Assembly: GCF_001650635.1 (NCBI RefSeq)
Contig: NZ_LWQU01000136.1
Span: forward strand, 1 to 38,685
Length of the DNA: 38,685 nucleotides
Direction of reading: 5' to 3'
Source of the DNA: Magnetospirillum moscoviense
Lineage (GTDB): Bacteria; Pseudomonadota; Alphaproteobacteria; Rhodospirillales; Magnetospirillaceae
Shown: positions 1 through 23,983 of the stretch, piece after piece
Numbering within the stretch: the stretch's first letter is position 1
Layout of the letters: every line of letters starts with the position of its first letter
Notes under the pieces: generated by a model
The model's database searches: none
Seen by the model: the letters and a program-made list of their open reading frames with translations, nothing else
What the model was told of the DNA's origin: nothing
Position numbers and translations under genes: made by a program

Positions 1-1
1 G

Positions 2-46
2 GACCCGACCGCGCGATATTGCCTCGCCGCCGCCATGGGGGCGTGA
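2..46 (+). CDS. Possible C-terminal tail of an upstream phage gene
   Basis: An open frame from the window edge ends in TGA at 44-46 and encodes 14 residues ending in LAAAMGA. It could be the end of a gene that lies mostly outside the window. A second frame is also open up to TAG at 67-69. Nothing in such a short piece allows a function to be named. Confidence 0.25.
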   Translation, partial: DPTARYCLAAAMGA

Positions 47-81
47 CCGTCAATACGATTCACGAATAGAGCCTTTTCTAT

Positions 82-1902
82 ATGGACCGCATCGGTCAGC
101 TGCGCCGCGTCTCGGCCGAAAAGCATGGCCAGAACACCCTGAAATCGCTGTTCGGGGATACCGCCTATCTGCTGTTGAACTGGCCGCGCGCCAAGCAGAC
201 CGAAGATGGCACCTGGGAAGCGACCGGCTGGCGGCCCGAGGAATGCGGATCGGCACTGATGGATGCGTGCGTGCGCAAGGGGGTGTTTGATCCCGATACC
301 AAGGTGCGCTGCGCCGGGGCCTGGAAGGGCGACGATGGCGAGCTGATCGTGCATTTCGGCTCGGCCATCGGGGTGTGGCCAGCGGACGGTGGACGGCCGG
401 CATCATACGATCCATGCGAATTGGGCGGATGGATTTATCCGACCCGGCCGGTCCTGCCCCATCCCGCCAAGCCTGCCAGCGCCATCGGCGCCGCCGAAGA
501 GGTGCTGGCCTATTTCCGGTCATGGAACTGGGCCAGGCCCGACGTTGACCCGTGGCTGTTGCTGGGATTTGTCGTCGCCAGCTTCCTGGGGGCCAGCGTG
601 CAATGGCATCCGCTGTTCTGGGCGGTCGGCGACCGGGGCACCGGCAAATCGACGATGCTGATGATGATTTACTGCCTGCTGGGCAACTTCATGCTGAAGA
701 TCGAGAACGCCACCAGCGCGTACATCTATCAGAAGGTCGGCCGCGACAGCCGTGCCGTCGGCATCGACGAAGCCGAGCCCGACGAGGAAAGCACCAAGCT
801 GAAGCAGCAGATGGAGTTGGCCCGTGCCGCCGCCTCGGGGTCGGTGATCGGCCGGGGCGGCGCCGACGGCACGCCGGTCGAGTTCTTCCAGAACGCGCCC
901 TATCTGTTCTGTTCCATCAACATGCCGGGGCTGAACGGCGCCGATCTGTCGCGCATCGCCGTCGGCGTGCTGGGGCCGCTGGAAGGCCATGCCTTGCCGG
1001 ACGACGCCAAGGTGCCGCCGGAAGAAGACAAGGTGATCATGCGCCGGGTGATGGAGCCGCTGGGCCGCCGCCTGCTGCGGCGCGTGGTCGATAACTGGCA
1101 TCGGTTTCCGGCGGTGCTGAAGGCGTTTCGCGGCGCCATGAAGGCCGCCGGTCACAGCGGACGTGGCGCCGATCTGTTCGGCACCCAGCTGGCCTGCGCC
1201 CACCTGGTGCTGTCGGACGCCATGCCGACCGAGGTCGAGCTGGCCGCCTGGGGCGAACGAATGAAGGCCAGCGAGCTGGCCGAGCTGTCCACCGACTTGG
1301 CCGCCAACAAGACCTGCCTGCTGCACCTGCTGACCAGCATGCTGGACGTCAAGCAGGGCGGTCAGTCCTTTACCGTCGGCCATTGGGTCGAGAAGCTGGC
1401 CACCAACAGGCAGATCAGCGAGGGCGAGCAATCGGGCGCCAAGGACGTGCGCGAGGTGCTGCGGACCTTCGGCCTGGACGTGCGGCCGCACCCGAAGGAC
1501 AAGGGCAATCCCAGGGCCGAACTGTACCTGTGGGTGGCCTATCGTCACCAGCAGGTGGCCAAGCTGTTCCAGGGCAGCACCTGGGAGTCCCGGCGCGGCG
1601 CCGGCTCGTGGGTCGGCAAGCTGGCCAGCCTGGACGGCGCCTGCGCCAACGTCTCGTTCCATTGCGGCGGGGCGGACAAGGCCGTGCTGGTACCCATTCA
1701 TTATTGCCAGGAAGGCCCGCCGGACGGCGGGCAGCAGGGGGAGCGCAGCGACCCGTCGGCCGCAGGGCGCTCGCCCGTCCAGGCGGCTGCCGTCTGTGAC
1801 CCTGACCCTTATGCGAGCGACCGGAGCGCGGCCGACACCGCATCCGCCGACCATCGTCAGGCCCCTGACCCCTTCGCCCTCTCTGAAGGTTTCCATTCAT
1901 GA
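82..1902 (+). CDS. Phage primase/helicase-like P-loop ATPase
   Basis: A 606-aa protein with a clear Walker A motif, GDRGTGKST, at residues 183-191 and a Walker B-like AVGIDEAE around 225-232, followed by a conserved ATPase stretch (LFCSINMPGL) near 275. This arrangement fits phage and mobile-element primase/helicase ATPases that unwind DNA for phage replication. The N-terminal 100 residues (FYMDRIGQLRR onward) resemble the region linking a primase-type domain to the helicase in such proteins. The ATG at 82 has no convincing Shine-Dalgarno site, and an in-frame TAG sits at 67-69, so the N terminus may be shortened or the primase part may be a separate upstream gene. The C-terminal 60 residues are low complexity. 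The repeat array directly downstream supports a replication role. Confidence 0.7.
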   Translation: MDRIGQLRRVSAEKHGQNTLKSLFGDTAYLLLNWPRAKQTEDGTWEATGWRPEECGSALMDACVRKGVFDPDTKVRCAGAWKGDDGELIVHFGSAIGVWPADGGRPASYDPCELGGWIYPTRPVLPHPAKPASAIGAAEEVLAYFRSWNWARPDVDPWLLLGFVVASFLGASVQWHPLFWAVGDRGTGKSTMLMMIYCLLGNFMLKIENATSAYIYQKVGRDSRAVGIDEAEPDEESTKLKQQMELARAAASGSVIGRGGADGTPVEFFQNAPYLFCSINMPGLNGADLSRIAVGVLGPLEGHALPDDAKVPPEEDKVIMRRVMEPLGRRLLRRVVDNWHRFPAVLKAFRGAMKAAGHSGRGADLFGTQLACAHLVLSDAMPTEVELAAWGERMKASELAELSTDLAANKTCLLHLLTSMLDVKQGGQSFTVGHWVEKLATNRQISEGEQSGAKDVREVLRTFGLDVRPHPKDKGNPRAELYLWVAYRHQQVAKLFQGSTWESRRGAGSWVGKLASLDGACANVSFHCGGADKAVLVPIHYCQEGPPDGGQQGERSDPSAAGRSPVQAAAVCDPDPYASDRSAADTASADHRQAPDPFALSEGFHS

Positions 1903-1961: not shown

Positions 1962-2238
1962 GCGGTTTGGTTTGTGGGTTTGGGGGGCGGTTTGGTCTTT
2001 ATTGTTGTAAATCAGTGTATTAGCGGCAACCAAACCGCCAAACCGACCAAACCGCGAAACAGGACACACATGCATGTGCATATGCGCAGGCGGGGGTGCG
2101 CGCATGTGTAGCGTTCGGAAATGGCGGTTTGGTGGTTTGGTTTGGATATGAATAGGTAATTTATCCTTATGTTTCACAGACTTAGACACCAAACCGCAGA
2201 CCAAACCGCGACCAAACCGCTGGGCAAACCGGTTTGGT
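1962..2238. repeat. Cluster of ACCAAACCGC repeats in both orientations
   Basis: Eight exact copies of a 10-bp motif lie in a 370-bp gene-free gap. ACCAAACCGC starts at 2029, 2046, 2188, 2200 and 2211; its complement GCGGTTTGGT starts at 1962, 1987 and 2124. Near copies are at 2037 and 2133, and a perfect 12-bp palindrome CAAACCGGTTTG is at 2225-2236. Three copies at 2188-2220 are spaced 12 and 11 bp, about one helical turn. Two AT-rich stretches (about 1997-2024 and 2143-2186) interrupt otherwise GC-rich DNA, and a hairpin has arms ACACATGC (from 2066) and GCATGTGT (ending 2109). The layout resembles iterons or multiple operator sites; the position beside the helicase-like gene favours a replication origin or packaging site. 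Confidence 0.85.
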
Positions 2239-2272: not shown

Positions 2273-2818
2273 ATGAGCGACCCGAGGGCAGGTGTGACGC
2301 AGGTTTTGGCGCAGGCGGCGGATGACCGCGAGCCCGAGTTAGAGCCCATGCAGGCATCGCTGCCGCTGCTGGACCCCGAGGCGCTGGCCGACCTGCCGAG
2401 CGGCGACCTGACCAAGCGGGCGGCGGCCATCATGCAGGCGGTGGCCAAGGGCGGGCGGCCGAAGGGCTCGCGCAACCGTCGCACCAAGGAAATGGTCGAG
2501 TACCTGCAGCACCGCTACCGCGATCCGCTGGAAGGTGCCTTCGCCACGTTCTCGCGGTCGGCCGCCGACCTGGCTGCCGAGCTGGGCTGCACCAAGCTGG
2601 AAGCCTTCGACCGGCAGGCGCACTGCATGGCGCTGGCTCTGCCGTACGTGCACTCCAAAATGCCGGTGGCGGTCAACGTCCAGGGCGACCTGCCGATGCT
2701 GGTGCTGGCCGATGTCGGTCAAGCGCTGGCCAGCATGGCGCCGGCCGGCCAGGTCATCGACCATGGGCCGCTGGCCGACGTGGTCGCCGTTGACATCGGA
2801 GGCGACTGCGATGCGTGA
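2273..2818 (+). CDS. Terminase small subunit-like protein
   Basis: A 181-aa protein directly upstream of the terminase large subunit, which is the usual place of the DNA-recognition subunit of the packaging motor. It carries a basic, AT-hook-like GRPKGSRNRRT segment at about residues 61-71, common in small terminase-like proteins and suited to DNA contact, followed by a mostly helical region. The start has a strong site, GGAGGA, at 2261-2266. The call rests on position and the basic motif, since small terminases diverge widely. The stop overlaps the next possible start. Confidence 0.65.
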   Translation: MSDPRAGVTQVLAQAADDREPELEPMQASLPLLDPEALADLPSGDLTKRAAAIMQAVAKGGRPKGSRNRRTKEMVEYLQHRYRDPLEGAFATFSRSAADLAAELGCTKLEAFDRQAHCMALALPYVHSKMPVAVNVQGDLPMLVLADVGQALASMAPAGQVIDHGPLADVVAVDIGGDCDA

Positions 2819-3152
2819 ACGCGACGTGAACAGCAGCGGAACAGGCGCATGCGATGGCGCACGGATGGCGCACGGTCCTGTCAAGGCGGCGGTTTCGCTG
2901 GCATCGCGCATGATCCGAACTCACGGTGTCATCCGATCCGCCTCCGACCGTCCGGCCGACCAGCCGTCAGAGGCGGAAAAAATCAAGGCCGACGCCCCCC
3001 CCAATCACCCAGTCATTTCCTGCACGGGTGGCACAAAAATGCTCCGACCTTTGGCCAGCCCAGCCGAACCGAACCGGAGCCGGGCGTGGGTGCGGGCTGG
3101 GGATGGGCTGGGGTCTGGGTTCAAGGTTTCTTTGTGCGAGGTATGGAGATGA
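2811..3152 (+). CDS. Possible small phage gene between the terminase genes
   Basis: A 113-aa frame starts at ATG 2811, eight bases inside the end of the small terminase gene, with GGAGG at 2798-2802 as a well placed ribosome site. It stops at TGA 3150-3152, overlapping the ATG of the large terminase as ATGA. This double coupling is the pattern of the neighbouring genes and argues that the frame is translated. The protein itself is not recognised, is rich in Ser/Arg/Pro/Ala and has no clear domain, so it may act mainly as a coupling leader. It contains a tandem 11-bp repeat (ATGGCGCACGG twice, 2854-2875). Confidence 0.45.
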   Translation: MRERDVNSSGTGACDGARMAHGPVKAAVSLASRMIRTHGVIRSASDRPADQPSEAEKIKADAPPNHPVISCTGGTKMLRPLASPAEPNRSRAWVRAGDGLGSGFKVSLCEVWR

Positions 3153-4609
3153 GCTTATCCCGCCCCTTCATCCCCGCTGGGCCGGTCTCGGCGTCGTTCA
3201 TCAGCCATCGCGCCATGATTACGGCCATCATGGGGCCGATCGGCGGTGGCAAGACATCGGCGGCGCTGATGAAGGCGATCTACATCGCCCGAGAGCAAAA
3301 TCCCGACCCCGACGGCGTCAGGCGCACCCGGTTCGCCTTCATCCGCAAGACGTATCGCGATCTGGAACGCACGCTGATCAAGTCGTGGTTCGATTGGGTG
3401 CCCCAGTCGCTGGGGGACTGGAAGGGCGGCACCGGCGGCCAGCCGGCCCAGCACATCCTGCGCTTTCGGCCGCAATCTCCCGATGGCACCACGGTGGAAT
3501 GCGAGGTGCTGTTCCTGGCCATCGGCGAGAATTCGGCGGAAGAGGCTTTGCGCGGCCTGGAAGTCACCGGCTTCTTTCTGGACGAAGCCGACACCCTGGA
3601 CGAAGAGGTTTTGATCTACGCCATCAGCCGCGCCGGTCGTTATCCCAAGACCGACCCGGCCAACGGCTTCCCCGGCCCCACCTGGTCCGGCGTGTGGATG
3701 GCGTTCAACGCCCCCGACACCGACAACTGGGTTTATCGCCGCTTCGTCGACGAACAGTTCGAGGGACACCATTTTTTCCGCCAGCCCGGCGGCCTGGAAG
3801 CCGGCGCCGAGAATTTGGCCAACCTGCCGGAAAGCTACTACCAGCGCGCCATGATGGGCCAGCCGGACTGGTGGATGCGCCGCATGATCCACAATCAGTT
3901 CGGCTATTCGCGCGACGGCAAGCCGGTCTACCCGGAATTTTCCGAGCGGCGACACCTGGCGCCGACCATCCTGCGGCCGACCAAGGGCCTTCCCATCCTG
4001 ATCGGGCTAGACGGCGGGCGCACCCCGGCGGCGGTGCTGGAACAAATTTCCCCCGAAGGCCAGCGCCGCACGATCGCCGAACTTGTCACCGACGGCATGG
4101 GCGCCACCCGCTTCGGCCGCGCCTTGCGTGATTTCCTGGACCGTGATTTTGCCGGCCTCGCCTTCAAAGGCTGGGGTGATCCGGCCGCCAGCTGGGCGGC
4201 GCGCGACGACGAGCAGGAACGGTCATGGCTGGAAATCGTTTCGAACGAGGCGCGCATTACGTTCCTGCCGGCCCCCAGCAACGACCCGACCATCCGGCTA
4301 GAGGCGGTGCGCCGCGATCTGCTGGAAAGCATCGACGGCGATACCCCGGCCTATCTGTGTTCGCCGGCCTGCAGGGTGCTGGTCAAGGGCTTCCTGTCGC
4401 ATTATCGCTATCGTCGCATGGCGGTGGCCGGCGGCGCGCGCTTCGACGATCGGCCGGAAAAGAACGACTGGTCGCATGTGCACGACGCCAAACAGTACGT
4501 CACCATCGGCGATGGCGGCCATGTCCACGCCCTGGGCCGCGCCAAGTCGCGCTTCTCCGCCCCCATCCAGGCCGACACCGGCTTTTCCGTGTTCGGAGGT
4601 CGCCGATGA
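3149..4609 (+). CDS. Terminase large subunit
   Basis: A 486-aa packaging motor protein: an N-terminal ATPase powers DNA entry into the capsid and a C-terminal nuclease cuts the concatemer. Walker A is GPIGGGKT at residues 29-36; the Walker B-like FFLDEAD has D145 and E146. ILIGLDGGRTPA around D288 starts the RNase H-like nuclease domain. The start at 3149 was chosen because GAGG at 3138-3141 is well spaced and the ATG overlaps the preceding stop. A longer frame from 2849 exists, but its first 100 residues do not look like protein. The end overlaps the next gene as ATGA, with GGAGG as its ribosome site. Confidence 0.9.
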   Translation: MSLSRPFIPAGPVSASFISHRAMITAIMGPIGGGKTSAALMKAIYIAREQNPDPDGVRRTRFAFIRKTYRDLERTLIKSWFDWVPQSLGDWKGGTGGQPAQHILRFRPQSPDGTTVECEVLFLAIGENSAEEALRGLEVTGFFLDEADTLDEEVLIYAISRAGRYPKTDPANGFPGPTWSGVWMAFNAPDTDNWVYRRFVDEQFEGHHFFRQPGGLEAGAENLANLPESYYQRAMMGQPDWWMRRMIHNQFGYSRDGKPVYPEFSERRHLAPTILRPTKGLPILIGLDGGRTPAAVLEQISPEGQRRTIAELVTDGMGATRFGRALRDFLDRDFAGLAFKGWGDPAASWAARDDEQERSWLEIVSNEARITFLPAPSNDPTIRLEAVRRDLLESIDGDTPAYLCSPACRVLVKGFLSHYRYRRMAVAGGARFDDRPEKNDWSHVHDAKQYVTIGDGGHVHALGRAKSRFSAPIQADTGFSVFGGRR

Positions 4610-8090: not shown

Positions 8091-8163
8091 ATGCGACCCG
8101 CAGTACCTGCCCGCCGGCCCTGGCGTTACGGGGCAAGCTGGGCTGGTATTGCGGGTTTCGCAT
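8091..8163 (+). other. Structured spacer RNA upstream of the capsid gene
   Basis: The 248-bp gap between scaffold and capsid genes has no convincing reading frame but much pairing potential. ATGCGACCCGCAGTACC (8091-8107) pairs with 8145-8163, which contains GGTAT, TGCGGG and TCGCAT, apart from a two-base bulge; inside, TGCCC (8108-8112) pairs with GGGCA (8131-8135). A short hairpin CAGGAA-AACG-TTCCTG is at 7955-7970. The capsid ribosome site (GGAAGG) lies after the structure. A leader that stabilises capsid mRNA or sets its translation is the simplest reading; no known riboswitch is recognised. Confidence 0.45.
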
Positions 8164-8201
8164 TTCCGGCCCTGGGACCAACAGGAACGGAAGGCCGAAA
8201 T

Positions 8202-9020
8202 ATGAGCACCTCCATTATCAATGCCTATTCCAAGGAATATGGCGACAAGGTCCATGTCGCGTATCAGCGACAGGGCTCGAAGCTGCGCAATACCGTGCGT
8301 GCCCGCAACAACGTCAATGGCGCCATCGCGGTATTCCAGAAGGTCGGCAAGGGGTCGGCCAGCACCAAGGGCCGTCACGGCAAGGTGCCGGTGATGAATA
8401 TCGATCACGAAGCGGTCGAATGCCAGCTGTACGACTATTATGCCGGTGACTGGAATGACAAGCTCGACCAGCTGAAGGCCGACGTCAACGAGGAACAGGT
8501 GCTGGTCAATGCCGGCGCCTACGCGCTGGGCCGCAAGACCGACGAACTGATCATCACCGAACTGGACAAGTCCACCAACTACGCCCTGGACGGCACCACC
8601 GCCTTGACCAAGGCCAAGGTCCTGCTTGGGTTGGAAATGCTGGGCAACGCCGACATTCCCGACGACGGCGAACGCACCGCCGTGGTCGGCTGGAAGCAAT
8701 GGTCGGACCTTTTGCAGATCCAGGAATTCGCCGACGCCGATTATGTCGGTTCCGACGATCTGCCGTGGAAGGGCGCCCAGGCCAAGCATTGGCTGGGAAC
8801 CCTGTGGATGCCCCATTCCGGCCTGACCAAGTCGGGCACCGTGCGCCATTGCTACTGGTATCACAAGACCGCCATCGGCCATGCCTCGGGCTGCGACGTC
8901 AAGTCGGAAATCACCTATCACGGCGACCGTGTCGCCTGGTTCGTCAACAACATGATGAGCCAGGGCGCCGCCCTGATCGACGCCACTGGCGTGGTCAGCC
9001 TGCGCTGCCTGGAAGCCTAG
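8202..9020 (+). CDS. Major capsid protein
   Basis: A 272-aa protein starting MSTSIINAYSKEYGDKVHVAYQRQGSKL, the kind of N terminus seen in major head proteins of many T7-like prophages of Proteobacteria. The rest holds VPVMNIDHEAVECQLYDYYAG, a domain with VGWKQWSDLL, and WFVNNMMSQGAALID near the end, consistent with an HK97-type fold. The start at 8202 was chosen for GGAAGG eight bases upstream and for the family-like N terminus; the frame extends 50 codons further up through the structured spacer, which is not believed coding. A strong hairpin follows the stop. Confidence 0.85.
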   Translation: MSTSIINAYSKEYGDKVHVAYQRQGSKLRNTVRARNNVNGAIAVFQKVGKGSASTKGRHGKVPVMNIDHEAVECQLYDYYAGDWNDKLDQLKADVNEEQVLVNAGAYALGRKTDELIITELDKSTNYALDGTTALTKAKVLLGLEMLGNADIPDDGERTAVVGWKQWSDLLQIQEFADADYVGSDDLPWKGAQAKHWLGTLWMPHSGLTKSGTVRHCYWYHKTAIGHASGCDVKSEITYHGDRVAWFVNNMMSQGAALIDATGVVSLRCLEA

Positions 9021-13065: not shown

Positions 13066-15168
13066 ATGAGCTTGCGCGGTCGCACCACCTTCCCGTCATC
13101 CCTGGCCCGGTCCACCCGGCCTCGCCGGTCGCTGGCATCGGCCGGCGCAGCCGGCGGCACCGGCGCCGCCCTGGCCGAATTCCTGTCGCAGACGGCCGGC
13201 GACATGATCCAGGACGCCCAGACCGCAGACGCCGAGCAGGTCGCGATCCAGGCCCGCCAAGAAGGGGCGGCGGCCGGCGTCAAGGCCGGCGCCGATGGCG
13301 GTGTCATCGCCCTTGCCCCCGGCGACACCGTGCGGGCCAAGGCGTTCAATGACGCCATGGTTGGCGGCTACACCGCCAGCCTGGACGTCTACACCCACGC
13401 CAAGGCGACCGAGTGGAAGGCCCAATATGCCGACAATCCCGACGGCTTCAAGGACCAGTGGGCGGCGCTGTCGGCCGGGCTGGTGCGAAACCAGCCGGCC
13501 GAATTGCAGCCCGAGGTGCAAGCCCAGCTACTGAAGCGCGGCGCCCTGATGCACTCGGACCTGGTCGCCGCCAAGGCCACCAAGGATTTGCGTCTGGCCG
13601 AGGACCGTGCCAACGGCGACATGCTGTCGGCGATGCTGAACGCCGACGGCCAGTCGGAACAGGCCTGGCGATCGGGCAACGCCACCGCCGCCGCCGGCCA
13701 TGACGCCACCTGGGCCGATTATCTGACGCGCCGCACCGACCTGCACGAGACGCAAAAGGTGCAACTGGCCGACGGCTTCCGCCGCAATCGCGCCCGCGCC
13801 GCCGTGCTGGGGGAATTCGACCGCGTCAAAGCCAAGGGGCTGGACGCCGCCGAAGCCTTCGTCCGCCGGCTTCCCGCCGCCCACAAGGACCAGGACCCTG
13901 ACGATTTGACCCGCTGGCAGGCGGAAATGGAACGCGGCCTGTCGGATCTGAAGGAACAGCGCCGCGAGGCTTTGTCGGCCCTGCACGACCAGGCGGCCGA
14001 CGCGCTGTTTCGCGCCGAACGGGGCTATGGCGCGCAGCCGCTGGTCGATCTGGCCAACAAGGCCCGCACTCTGGGCGATGACCGCCTGGCCGCCCGCCTG
14101 TCGCAAACGGTTCGCGCCGCCGATCTGGCGGTTGATCTGGCCCATATGCCGCTGCCGGCCCTGGCCGCCAAGGCACAAGATTATGAACAGACGGCCAAGG
14201 CTGGCGGCGATCCGCGCCGCGCCGAAATCGCCCGGTCGGTGCTGGCCGAACAATCCAAGGCCCTGGCCACCGACGCCATCGGCCATACCCGCCGCCAAGG
14301 TTTCGCCGTTCCGGCCATCGACTGGTCCAATCCCGACAGTCTGGCCGAACGCACCCGGTTCGCCGACCGGCTGTCGGGCATTCACAAGATACCGGTGTCT
14401 GCCCTGGACAAGGCCGAGCTGGCCGACCTTCATGCCCGGCTGGACGCCGGCAGCCCCGACGACAAGGCCCGGCTGCTGGGCAGCCTGGCCAAGGGGTTCG
14501 GCACCCGCCGCCTGCCCGAGGTGCTGGACGCCATCGGCGCCAAGGACAACGAAACCGCCCAGGCCGGGGCCATCGCCGCGCGCGGCGGCAATGGCGGCCA
14601 GGTGGCCCGTGACATCTTGTTCGGCCAGGCGCTCAGGAAGTCGCTGTCTTCCGACAAGGCCGGCGGCGGCCGCCAATATCTGCCGCCCAAGGATGAAGCG
14701 TTTCGGCTGTTCTTCGAAACCGCCTTGCCGCCTGCCGCCCTGGCCGCCATGGCCCCCGAAGATCAGGCCGGCATTCAGCAGGCGGTGATTTCCAGCTATG
14801 CCGCCAAATCGCATGCCGCTGGCAAGGCCCATCAGGTGGCGGTCGATCCTGTGCTGTTTCGTGCCGCCGTCACCGATGTCACCGGCGGCGTGGTCGCCTG
14901 GAACGGCAAATCCTTCCCGGCGCCCCGGCCGGGCGTGACCCAGGCCGACATCACCAAGCTGGTCGATGGCCTGACCGACAACGATTTCCTGATGGCCCAG
15001 GACAAGGTGACCCCTGCGCAGGTCCGCCATCACGGCCGGTTCGTGATGAAGGAACCGGGCCGCTATTTCGTCGAGATCGGCGGCGCCTTCGTGCACGACA
15101 AGTTCGGGCGTCCGCTGGAACTGGATTTGGGCTTCAAGGCCCGGCTGAACCGCATGGGGGCCGACTGA
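13066..15168 (+). CDS. Internal virion protein (gp15-like)
   Basis: A 700-aa mostly helical protein between the gp14-like and gp16-like genes, which is the place of the middle internal core protein in T7-like phages. It has long Ala/Lys/Glu-rich helices (such as DLVAAKATKDLRLAEDRANG), repeated helix-turn patterns, and a C terminus with YFVEIGGAFVHDKFGRPLELDLG. No enzyme motif is seen. The start at 13066 lies four bases after the previous stop; a longer frame reaches back to 12832 but only overlaps the previous gene. Known gp15 forms part of the tube that spans the periplasm during injection. Confidence 0.65.
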   Translation: MSLRGRTTFPSSLARSTRPRRSLASAGAAGGTGAALAEFLSQTAGDMIQDAQTADAEQVAIQARQEGAAAGVKAGADGGVIALAPGDTVRAKAFNDAMVGGYTASLDVYTHAKATEWKAQYADNPDGFKDQWAALSAGLVRNQPAELQPEVQAQLLKRGALMHSDLVAAKATKDLRLAEDRANGDMLSAMLNADGQSEQAWRSGNATAAAGHDATWADYLTRRTDLHETQKVQLADGFRRNRARAAVLGEFDRVKAKGLDAAEAFVRRLPAAHKDQDPDDLTRWQAEMERGLSDLKEQRREALSALHDQAADALFRAERGYGAQPLVDLANKARTLGDDRLAARLSQTVRAADLAVDLAHMPLPALAAKAQDYEQTAKAGGDPRRAEIARSVLAEQSKALATDAIGHTRRQGFAVPAIDWSNPDSLAERTRFADRLSGIHKIPVSALDKAELADLHARLDAGSPDDKARLLGSLAKGFGTRRLPEVLDAIGAKDNETAQAGAIAARGGNGGQVARDILFGQALRKSLSSDKAGGGRQYLPPKDEAFRLFFETALPPAALAAMAPEDQAGIQQAVISSYAAKSHAAGKAHQVAVDPVLFRAAVTDVTGGVVAWNGKSFPAPRPGVTQADITKLVDGLTDNDFLMAQDKVTPAQVRHHGRFVMKEPGRYFVEIGGAFVHDKFGRPLELDLGFKARLNRMGAD

Positions 15169-18124: not shown

Positions 18125-18724
18125 ATGAACCTGACCACCATCCTGGGCGATGTCGCCGCCATCGCCGCCAATCCAGTGCTGGGCCTGGCCAAGGTCGCCA
18201 TCGACCTCGCGCCCGACATCGCCGACCTGTTCGGCGACGACGACGCCGCCAAGACGGTCGAGAAGATCGCCACCACCGTCAAGGCGCTGACCGGCACCGA
18301 CGATCCGGCGGCAGCGCGCGAGACCCTGTCCGATCCCGTTCTGCTGGCGCAGTTGCGCAGTCAGGCCCAGGCCTTCGCCCATGCCGAGACCATGGCTCGG
18401 ATGAACAACACCTTGGCAGCCTTCCAGGCGACCCTAGGCGACCGTCAGGGTGCTCGCGCTCGCGACATGGAAATCACCAAGGCCGGTAGGACCAACCACC
18501 GGGCGAACGTTCTTCTGGTGGTGGCGATGATTGGTGTTGTTGCCTGCATCTGCGCCATGATCTTCGGCCAGATCGACGGGAACACGGCGCTGGGCGGCAC
18601 CATCCTTTCCATCGCGGTGATGCTCGCCAACAAGTTCGTGACGGCCTTCGATTTCGAATTCGGCGGCTCGGCCGACAGCGCCGAGACCCGCAACCTGCTG
18701 GCCAAGGCGCCGCCGATTGCGTAG
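18125..18724 (+). CDS. Holin-like membrane protein
   Basis: A 199-aa protein starting directly after the endolysin stop. Two membrane segments are clear, ANVLLVVAMIGVVACICAMIFG (about 127-148) and ALGGTILSIAVMLANKFVTAF (about 155-175), and a third weaker hydrophobic stretch lies near residues 8-25. The FDFEFGGSADS end and the charged helical middle (QARARDMEI-like) fit the GTA/prophage 3TM holin family. It would open the inner membrane for the endolysin. No spanin genes are recognised after it. Confidence 0.75.
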   Translation: MNLTTILGDVAAIAANPVLGLAKVAIDLAPDIADLFGDDDAAKTVEKIATTVKALTGTDDPAAARETLSDPVLLAQLRSQAQAFAHAETMARMNNTLAAFQATLGDRQGARARDMEITKAGRTNHRANVLLVVAMIGVVACICAMIFGQIDGNTALGGTILSIAVMLANKFVTAFDFEFGGSADSAETRNLLAKAPPIA

Positions 18725-18889: not shown

Positions 18890-18965
18890 TGGTGAGCCCG
18901 TCGGGATTCGAACCCGAGACCCCATGATTAAAAGTCACGTGCTCTACCGACTGAGCTACGGGCTC
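18890..18965 (-). tRNA. tRNA-Lys (anticodon TTT)
   Basis: A complete 76-nt tRNA with encoded CCA. The acceptor stem is GAGCCCG with CGGGCTC (18959-18965 and 18894-18900 on the + strand), the D arm has AGCTCAGTCGGTAGAGC, the anticodon loop CTTTTAA gives TTT, and the T arm has GGGTTCGAATCCC. It lies at the right edge of the prophage with its 3' end facing the phage, so it is the likely attachment site. Confidence 0.96.

Positions 18966-20586: not shown

Positions 20587-23284
<2,698 letters not shown>

Positions 23285-23428: not shown

Positions 23429-23983
<555 letters not shown>

Follow-up and report, generated by a model that had tools for sequence, protein, structure and literature searches.

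This work points to an ordered array of short iterons, lying just 3' of a helicase gene, as the replication origin of a prophage of Magnetospirillum moscoviense or as a region required in cis for its replication, a reading to which we give a probability of roughly three in four. The array fills most of the 370-bp gap between the helicase stop codon (1902) and the next ATG (2273) in the window, i.e. the whole stretch of 38,685 bp that was analysed, which is the complete contig C136 of a 4.16-Mb draft genome. The strongest support for an origin comes from small plasmids of Arsenophonus nasoniae and from the Bdellovibrio phage phi1422, which carry the same layout without an adjoining terminase gene. 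An earlier note on this DNA had offered a replication origin, a multi-site operator and a packaging initiation site side by side; comparison across the helicase family favours the first and weakens the last, so that the proposal is only partly supported.

The iteron array and its prophage setting

The 10-mer ACCAAACCGC occurs in eight exact copies between 1962 and 2220, where 0.10 would be expected and where none of 100 shuffles reached eight; a recount gave five forward and three reverse copies, as the earlier note had claimed. The near copies, the 12-bp palindrome and the gene-free gap between the helicase and terminase genes that it had described were likewise found. Two additional sites with one mismatch lie within the gap (2132 and 2229), 13 of the 15 CCAAACC cores of the window fall within 1964-2231, and the palindrome CAAACCGGTTTG, which occurs once in the window, is located at 2225-2236. 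The copies at 2188-2220, described as phased by about one helical turn, are separated by measured steps of 12 and 11 bp. In the draft genome, ACCAAACCGC is present 18 times, eight times in the array and ten times singly on ten other contigs (the backwards-read pattern, used as control, gives 4 matches); outside the gap, the motif is thus limited to single scattered copies. The features of the locus are as follows.

82..1902, + strand: predicted SF3/D5-like helicase and proposed initiator; 606 aa present, 5' end beyond the contig start
1962, 1987, 2124, - strand: exact reverse copies of ACCAAACCGC
2029, 2046, 2188, 2200, 2211, + strand: exact forward copies of ACCAAACCGC
1962..1996, - strand: left outer iteron block; cores at 1964, 1977, 1989; steps of 13 and 12 bp
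1997..2028, no strand: left AT-rich arm, candidate unwinding element; GC 0.34 versus 0.67 in the helicase gene
2029..2055, + strand: left inner iteron block; cores at 2030, 2038, 2047; steps of 8 and 9 bp
2056..2123, no strand: alternating purine-pyrimidine centre
2124..2145, - strand: right inner iteron block; cores at 2126, 2134, 2139; steps of 8 and 5 bp
2146..2187, no strand: right AT-rich arm, candidate unwinding element; GC 0.29; conserved TTATGTTTCACAG...TTAG
2188..2220, + strand: right outer iteron block; cores at 2189, 2201, 2212; steps of 12 and 11 bp
2225..2238, - strand: extra reverse iteron (core at 2231), overlapping the palindrome CAAACCGGTTTG
2273..2818, + strand: gene at the place of a terminase small subunit, competing candidate for reading the array; 181 aa, GRPKG motif
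3149..4609, + strand: terminase large subunit (PHROG 2, E 6.7e-19; Pfam Terminase_6N, E 7e-4, below cut-off)

The regular block order, absent from the earlier note, is apparent from this list: the cores run in blocks of three as reverse, forward, reverse and forward, followed by the single reverse core, with steps of 11-13 bp in the outer blocks and of 8-9 bp in the inner ones, except for a last one of 5 bp. In the centre, purines and pyrimidines alternate without a break over 25 bp (2064-2088), farther than anywhere else in the window, and over 15 bp at 2096-2110, a run that is joint second-longest with 263-277. Regarding the structures said to lie between the groups of copies, the AT-rich stretches are borne out by the two arms and the long hairpin is not. 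As a DNA fold, 2055-2123 reaches -11.7 kcal/mol versus -11.0 for shuffles (z -0.37), and 64 of 200 shuffles are equally stable; it was consequently rejected as a key feature.

The array sits in a Magnetospirillum-type prophage. Genes further downstream match head, tail and lysis functions, and the gene order in relatives is primase, helicase, array and terminase-position gene. The protein encoded at 2273..2818 matches no family in Pfam or PHROG. The IMG/VR record of the prophage starts at position 82 of the window and would end at 18724 if its length is applied; just past the last phage-like gene (18125-18724), a tRNA-Lys gene on the minus strand (18890-18965) is a possible attachment site candidate. 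At the other side, the first ~70 bases of the window break the helicase frame (TAG at 67-69), which relatives continue. One end of contig C167 carries the primase gene together with a fragment that corresponds (72%) to the initial 94 residues of the helicase stretch of the relative L022. Since the 5' piece of the helicase ends that contig, the start of the window (1-81) may represent an assembly edge or a rearrangement.

The helicase itself matches PHROG 21086 (E 2.4e-57) and PHROG 35358 (DNA primase, E 7.6e-38), and no Pfam family scores above cut-off. An AF2 model built from 66 sequences has a mean pLDDT of 87.7; a model from 9 sequences was discarded (mean pLDDT 54, meaningless PDB matches). 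The 50 PDB matches listed for the retained model are all D5/E5 proteins of poxviruses, the C-terminal region of NrS-1 or ASFV PrimPol, with E-values of 2.4e-7 to 1.1e-5 and a probability of 1.00, at TM scores by query of just 0.25-0.32. Because of these matches, the predicted fold places the protein among SF3/D5-type helicases. A sequence search of solved structures returned three matches, the best being a phosphate-loop protein at E 0.032. Residues 411-540 of the model form an alpha/beta stretch, mostly well predicted, which we propose as a candidate DNA reader.

Conservation of the layout with exchange of the word

The helicase is present in 3 of the 61 genomes around the host, its own genome counted. 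Four close relatives were found, in two genomes, a viral contig (L010/L023) and a metagenome contig (L021), with 62-76% identity, and the gap with its array, for which the earlier note had suggested a search of related prophages, is kept in all four. Neither of the two outcomes that this note had named as refuting, a motif common in the genome without clustering or a gap lost from related prophages, was thus observed. In an alignment of four sequences, the window and three of these relatives, the iterons hardly vary while most spacer columns have diverged; the left inner block (2029..2055) is nearly unchanged. The exception among spacers is the well-conserved stretch TTATGTTTCACAG...TTAG in the right arm (2146-2187), which may be an additional protein-binding site. 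The array of L021 displays ATCAAACC alongside some CCAAACC cores. One of the genomes (G002, contigs C331 and C259) holds three weaker helicase matches besides its close relative (L014, L015 and L016), and the CCAAACC core is absent from all three.

More distant helicase relatives carry arrays at the same place with other words. For the family comparison, the best 80 of 94 confirmed loci of a viral-contig scan were kept, and 118 loci were finally retained: 79 of these 80, 9 of 23 phage records, 8 of 14 plasmid records, 13 genome loci, 4 of 6 loci from another search, the window and its 4 close relatives. They comprise 99 non-redundant helicases at 95% identity, the window included. At a score of at least 10, arrays were detected in 52 of 98 stretches covering the 700 bp after the helicase stop (one flank was too short) and in 7 of 97 from +700 to +1430. 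Control stretches gave 0/99 inside the gene, 0/96 on its 5' side (the window and L157, whose genes start near the sequence end, being left aside) and 1/79 far 5'. At a score of at least 9, an array lies within 1.5 kb 3' of the helicase at 60 of the 99 non-redundant loci, i.e. the window, the close relatives (4/4), other viral contigs (41/67), phage records (3/9), genome loci (6/10) and plasmids (5/8). The other 39 have no array within 1.5 kb at this threshold, although some loci have one at a greater distance.

The spacing rules of the window recur at these 60 loci, whose counts are not independent since the loci share descent. Indeed, 231 of 279 same-strand steps measure 8-9 bp (124) or 11-12 bp (107), strand switches are fewer (214) than after label shuffling (mean 255, minimum 226 of 1000 shuffles), and mirror partners are commoner (287/553) than in shuffles (mean 225, maximum 257 of 300). 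In gaps of 36-60 bp, GC is 0.416 compared with 0.646 for the gene, and 88 of 98 lie clearly below it. In gaps of 61-110 bp, purine-pyrimidine alternation exceeds the shuffled level in 53 of 68 and GC is below that of the gene in 50 of 68; because gaps were sorted by length alone, calling these classes arms and centres is approximate. Among 16 outgroup loci with weak helicase matches, 14 have a usable flank and 2 of these hold 4-5 copies of the same word, ATCCACGC, near the helicase stop. Judging from these sequences, distant relatives retain the repeat layout and carry another word in it, as though a single docking design had repeatedly been given a new key.

This conservation bears on the view that the repeats have no function. 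Other short repeat clusters do exist in the window, such as the GC-rich one at 23795-23906 (GCCACCGCC seven times in 112 bp), which is unrelated to the array; however, iterons that are kept while most spacers diverge, and a position and a spacing that recur across the helicase family, make functionless repeats hardly credible.

Origin, packaging or operator

A packaging start site (cos or pac), in which the protein of the next gene would bind the array and guide the large terminase subunit to cut nearby, agrees with the location of the array upstream of the terminase genes. The terminase-position gene or a relative of it follows 45 of the 60 arrays (43 times within 300 bp; the queries included the own genes of 35 of these loci), while no relative is found downstream of the 15 others, for some of which the flank is too short to tell. 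A scan for this gene gave 39 loci (redundancy kept), 34 of which have more than 1.5 kb upstream: 25 with helicase and array, 7 with a helicase and no array at threshold, and 2 with an array and no helicase in reach. One of these two is a 4-kb fragment; in the other, L187, the array precedes the terminase-position gene and lies 4.5 kb after the helicase match. Inserted genes tend to fall between helicase and array, and the array is in several loci linked more tightly to the terminase-position gene than to the helicase. In L187, the inserted genes form cargo where the replication and packaging modules meet; on the minus strand they comprise a gene for an ArdC-like anti-restriction protein (2787-3977) and one that matches PAPS reductase (284-1129).

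At 57 of the 60 loci (L038 was left out for its AT-rich repeats, L093 and L034 for internal stops), word similarity follows the identity of the helicase C-terminal part beyond that of the ATPase (partial correlation 0.163, reached by 0/999 permutations), whereas the reverse test of the ATPase beyond the C-terminal part gives 0.014 (348/999); a weaker relation of this kind, again beyond the ATPase, is seen for the N-terminal part (0.091, 11/999). At 30 loci that have the terminase-position gene, its protein follows the word more closely (0.180 with the helicase accounted for, 5/999) than does the helicase C-terminal part, which reaches 0.105 (49/999), or 0.073 (127/999) once the rest of the helicase is taken into account as well. 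Close pairs are mixed: the window and L022 share one word at 60% C-terminal identity, and the window and L021 have different words at 67%. We infer that the helicase binds the iterons, with weak and mixed support from co-variation.

Four distinct plasmids of Arsenophonus nasoniae, 7.9-11.6 kb in size (three are linear according to their records and the fourth is circular, and a protelomerase gene is listed in three), display the layout 3' of a helicase relative ~23% identical to that of the window. Each has its own word (GCTAACAA, GGTAACA, GGTTGTAA and CATTACA, one each), and words differ even between plasmids of the same strain (paPv13 and paPv15; paNv_CAN17 and paNv_CAN18). The helicases of paPv13 and paNv_CAN17, whose words differ, are identical at 335 of 341 positions (98%) before the C-terminal part and at 102 of 149 (68%) within it, a contrast that is weaker or missing in other helicase pairs. 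For paNv_CAN18, five genes are listed, with neither a terminase nor an annotated initiator, in a gene table that is incomplete; in its three sister plasmids, a terminase-small-subunit gene lies at least 3 kb from the array. In phage phi1422, the array (14007-14311) directly follows gp23 and the terminase genes start at 21499, 7.2 kb away. As a side observation, the protelomerase plasmid L075 (NZ_CP123541) carries TAACTGTA and ACTGTACA near both ends (reverse strand, ~20-400 and 8107-8213), which are perhaps resolvase or telomere sites.

These plasmids and phi1422 make it unlikely that packaging is the function common to all carriers of the layout, except if the plasmids are satellites in which a packaging site has been retained. 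The arrays of tailed phages could nevertheless serve packaging, alone or additionally, given the adjacent terminase-position gene and its tracking of the word. Taken as the explanation of the array in the window, packaging is weakened and appears unlikely to us. In the same vein, a multi-site operator for the downstream packaging and head genes would fit an array lying ahead of the gene with which the packaging and structural region begins, and a looping regulator could make use of its paired inverted sites. Yet a search of 1850-2350 found no sigma-70-like promoter, a test of little power in an alphaproteobacterium, and the array persists in phi1422 and the Arsenophonus plasmids though other genes lie downstream, which leaves an operator highly improbable. 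From the small Arsenophonus plasmids, we infer that the array is required in cis for replication.

A proposed doubled rep-ori arrangement

As a replication origin, the array might work in the following way. The SF3/D5-like helicase would bind the iterons, probably via its C-terminal part, and the opposed outer and inner blocks would seat helicase assemblies flanking each AT-rich arm. The arm would then melt, allowing the helicase to load and unwind, and the primase of the phage, whose gene lies upstream on contig C167, would synthesise the primers. Because the two halves of the array are rough mirror images about the alternating centre, they seem suited to a bidirectional start with two helicases departing in opposite directions.

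By analogy, the array most likely works like the alpha/crr pair of P4 and the rep-ori pair of PICIs in a doubled, roughly mirror-image form, without being a proven member of either. In the satellite phage P4, as annotated in NC_001609, short iterons in both directions also form two modules directly downstream of the gene of a primase-helicase: crr starts 46 bp 3' of alpha, and 43 bp separate its opposed type I repeats. However, alpha is a single primase-helicase protein whereas the prophage has separate primase and helicase genes, the crr modules are direct repeats and not mirror-image halves, and P4 has an additional iteron cluster at its ori. In profile comparison, the helicase and alpha align over only 45 columns around Walker A (probability 28%), a comparison that does not join the two families. 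In PICIs and SaPIs, according to the published description, the origin lies directly 3' of the initiator gene rep and two sets of iterons flank an AT-rich region, an organisation presented there, in 2018, as seen in no other known bacterial replicon (PMC6092414). Unlike a PICI, the element studied here is a prophage that has genes for head, tail and lysis functions, and its two units face each other across the alternating centre. The archaeal plasmid pRN1 offers a further parallel, since the gene of its SF3 helicase replication protein, ORF904, has a putative origin just downstream; this origin is described as a large stem-loop without iterons, unlike the array (PMC4234260). Finally, in PLEs, the DNA-binding domain of the initiator RepA and the origin change together, and swaps demonstrated their mutual specificity (PMC8263062). 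Their origin has three iterons of ~30 bp, and their initiator is of the RepA_N type with no helicase (PMC7145576).

A bolder proposal is that a single origin layout is common to a large family of tailed phages, phage-plasmids and small protelomerase plasmids, in which the word and the C-terminal part of the SF3 helicase that reads it would be re-keyed together to yield many mutually compatible replicons. In the tailed phages of this family, the terminase-position protein would recognise that word as well, and a single array would act both as origin and as packaging start. We consider this proposal distinctly unlikely in its complete form.

A search of the open-licence literature, outside which most subscription journals fall, retrieved no title or abstract describing this array. 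To our knowledge, most temperate phages other than a few models have origins that are yet to be mapped. With a spacing rule that recurs while the words are exchanged, origins could be located by sequence alone in a large number of prophages, viral contigs and phage-plasmids. Besides, matched pairs of helicase and word, including those of plasmids from the same strain, would make initiator specificity and replicon compatibility testable. If the array is indeed an origin, it would extend to full phages the type of origin organisation that the 2018 report describes for PICIs (PMC6092414).
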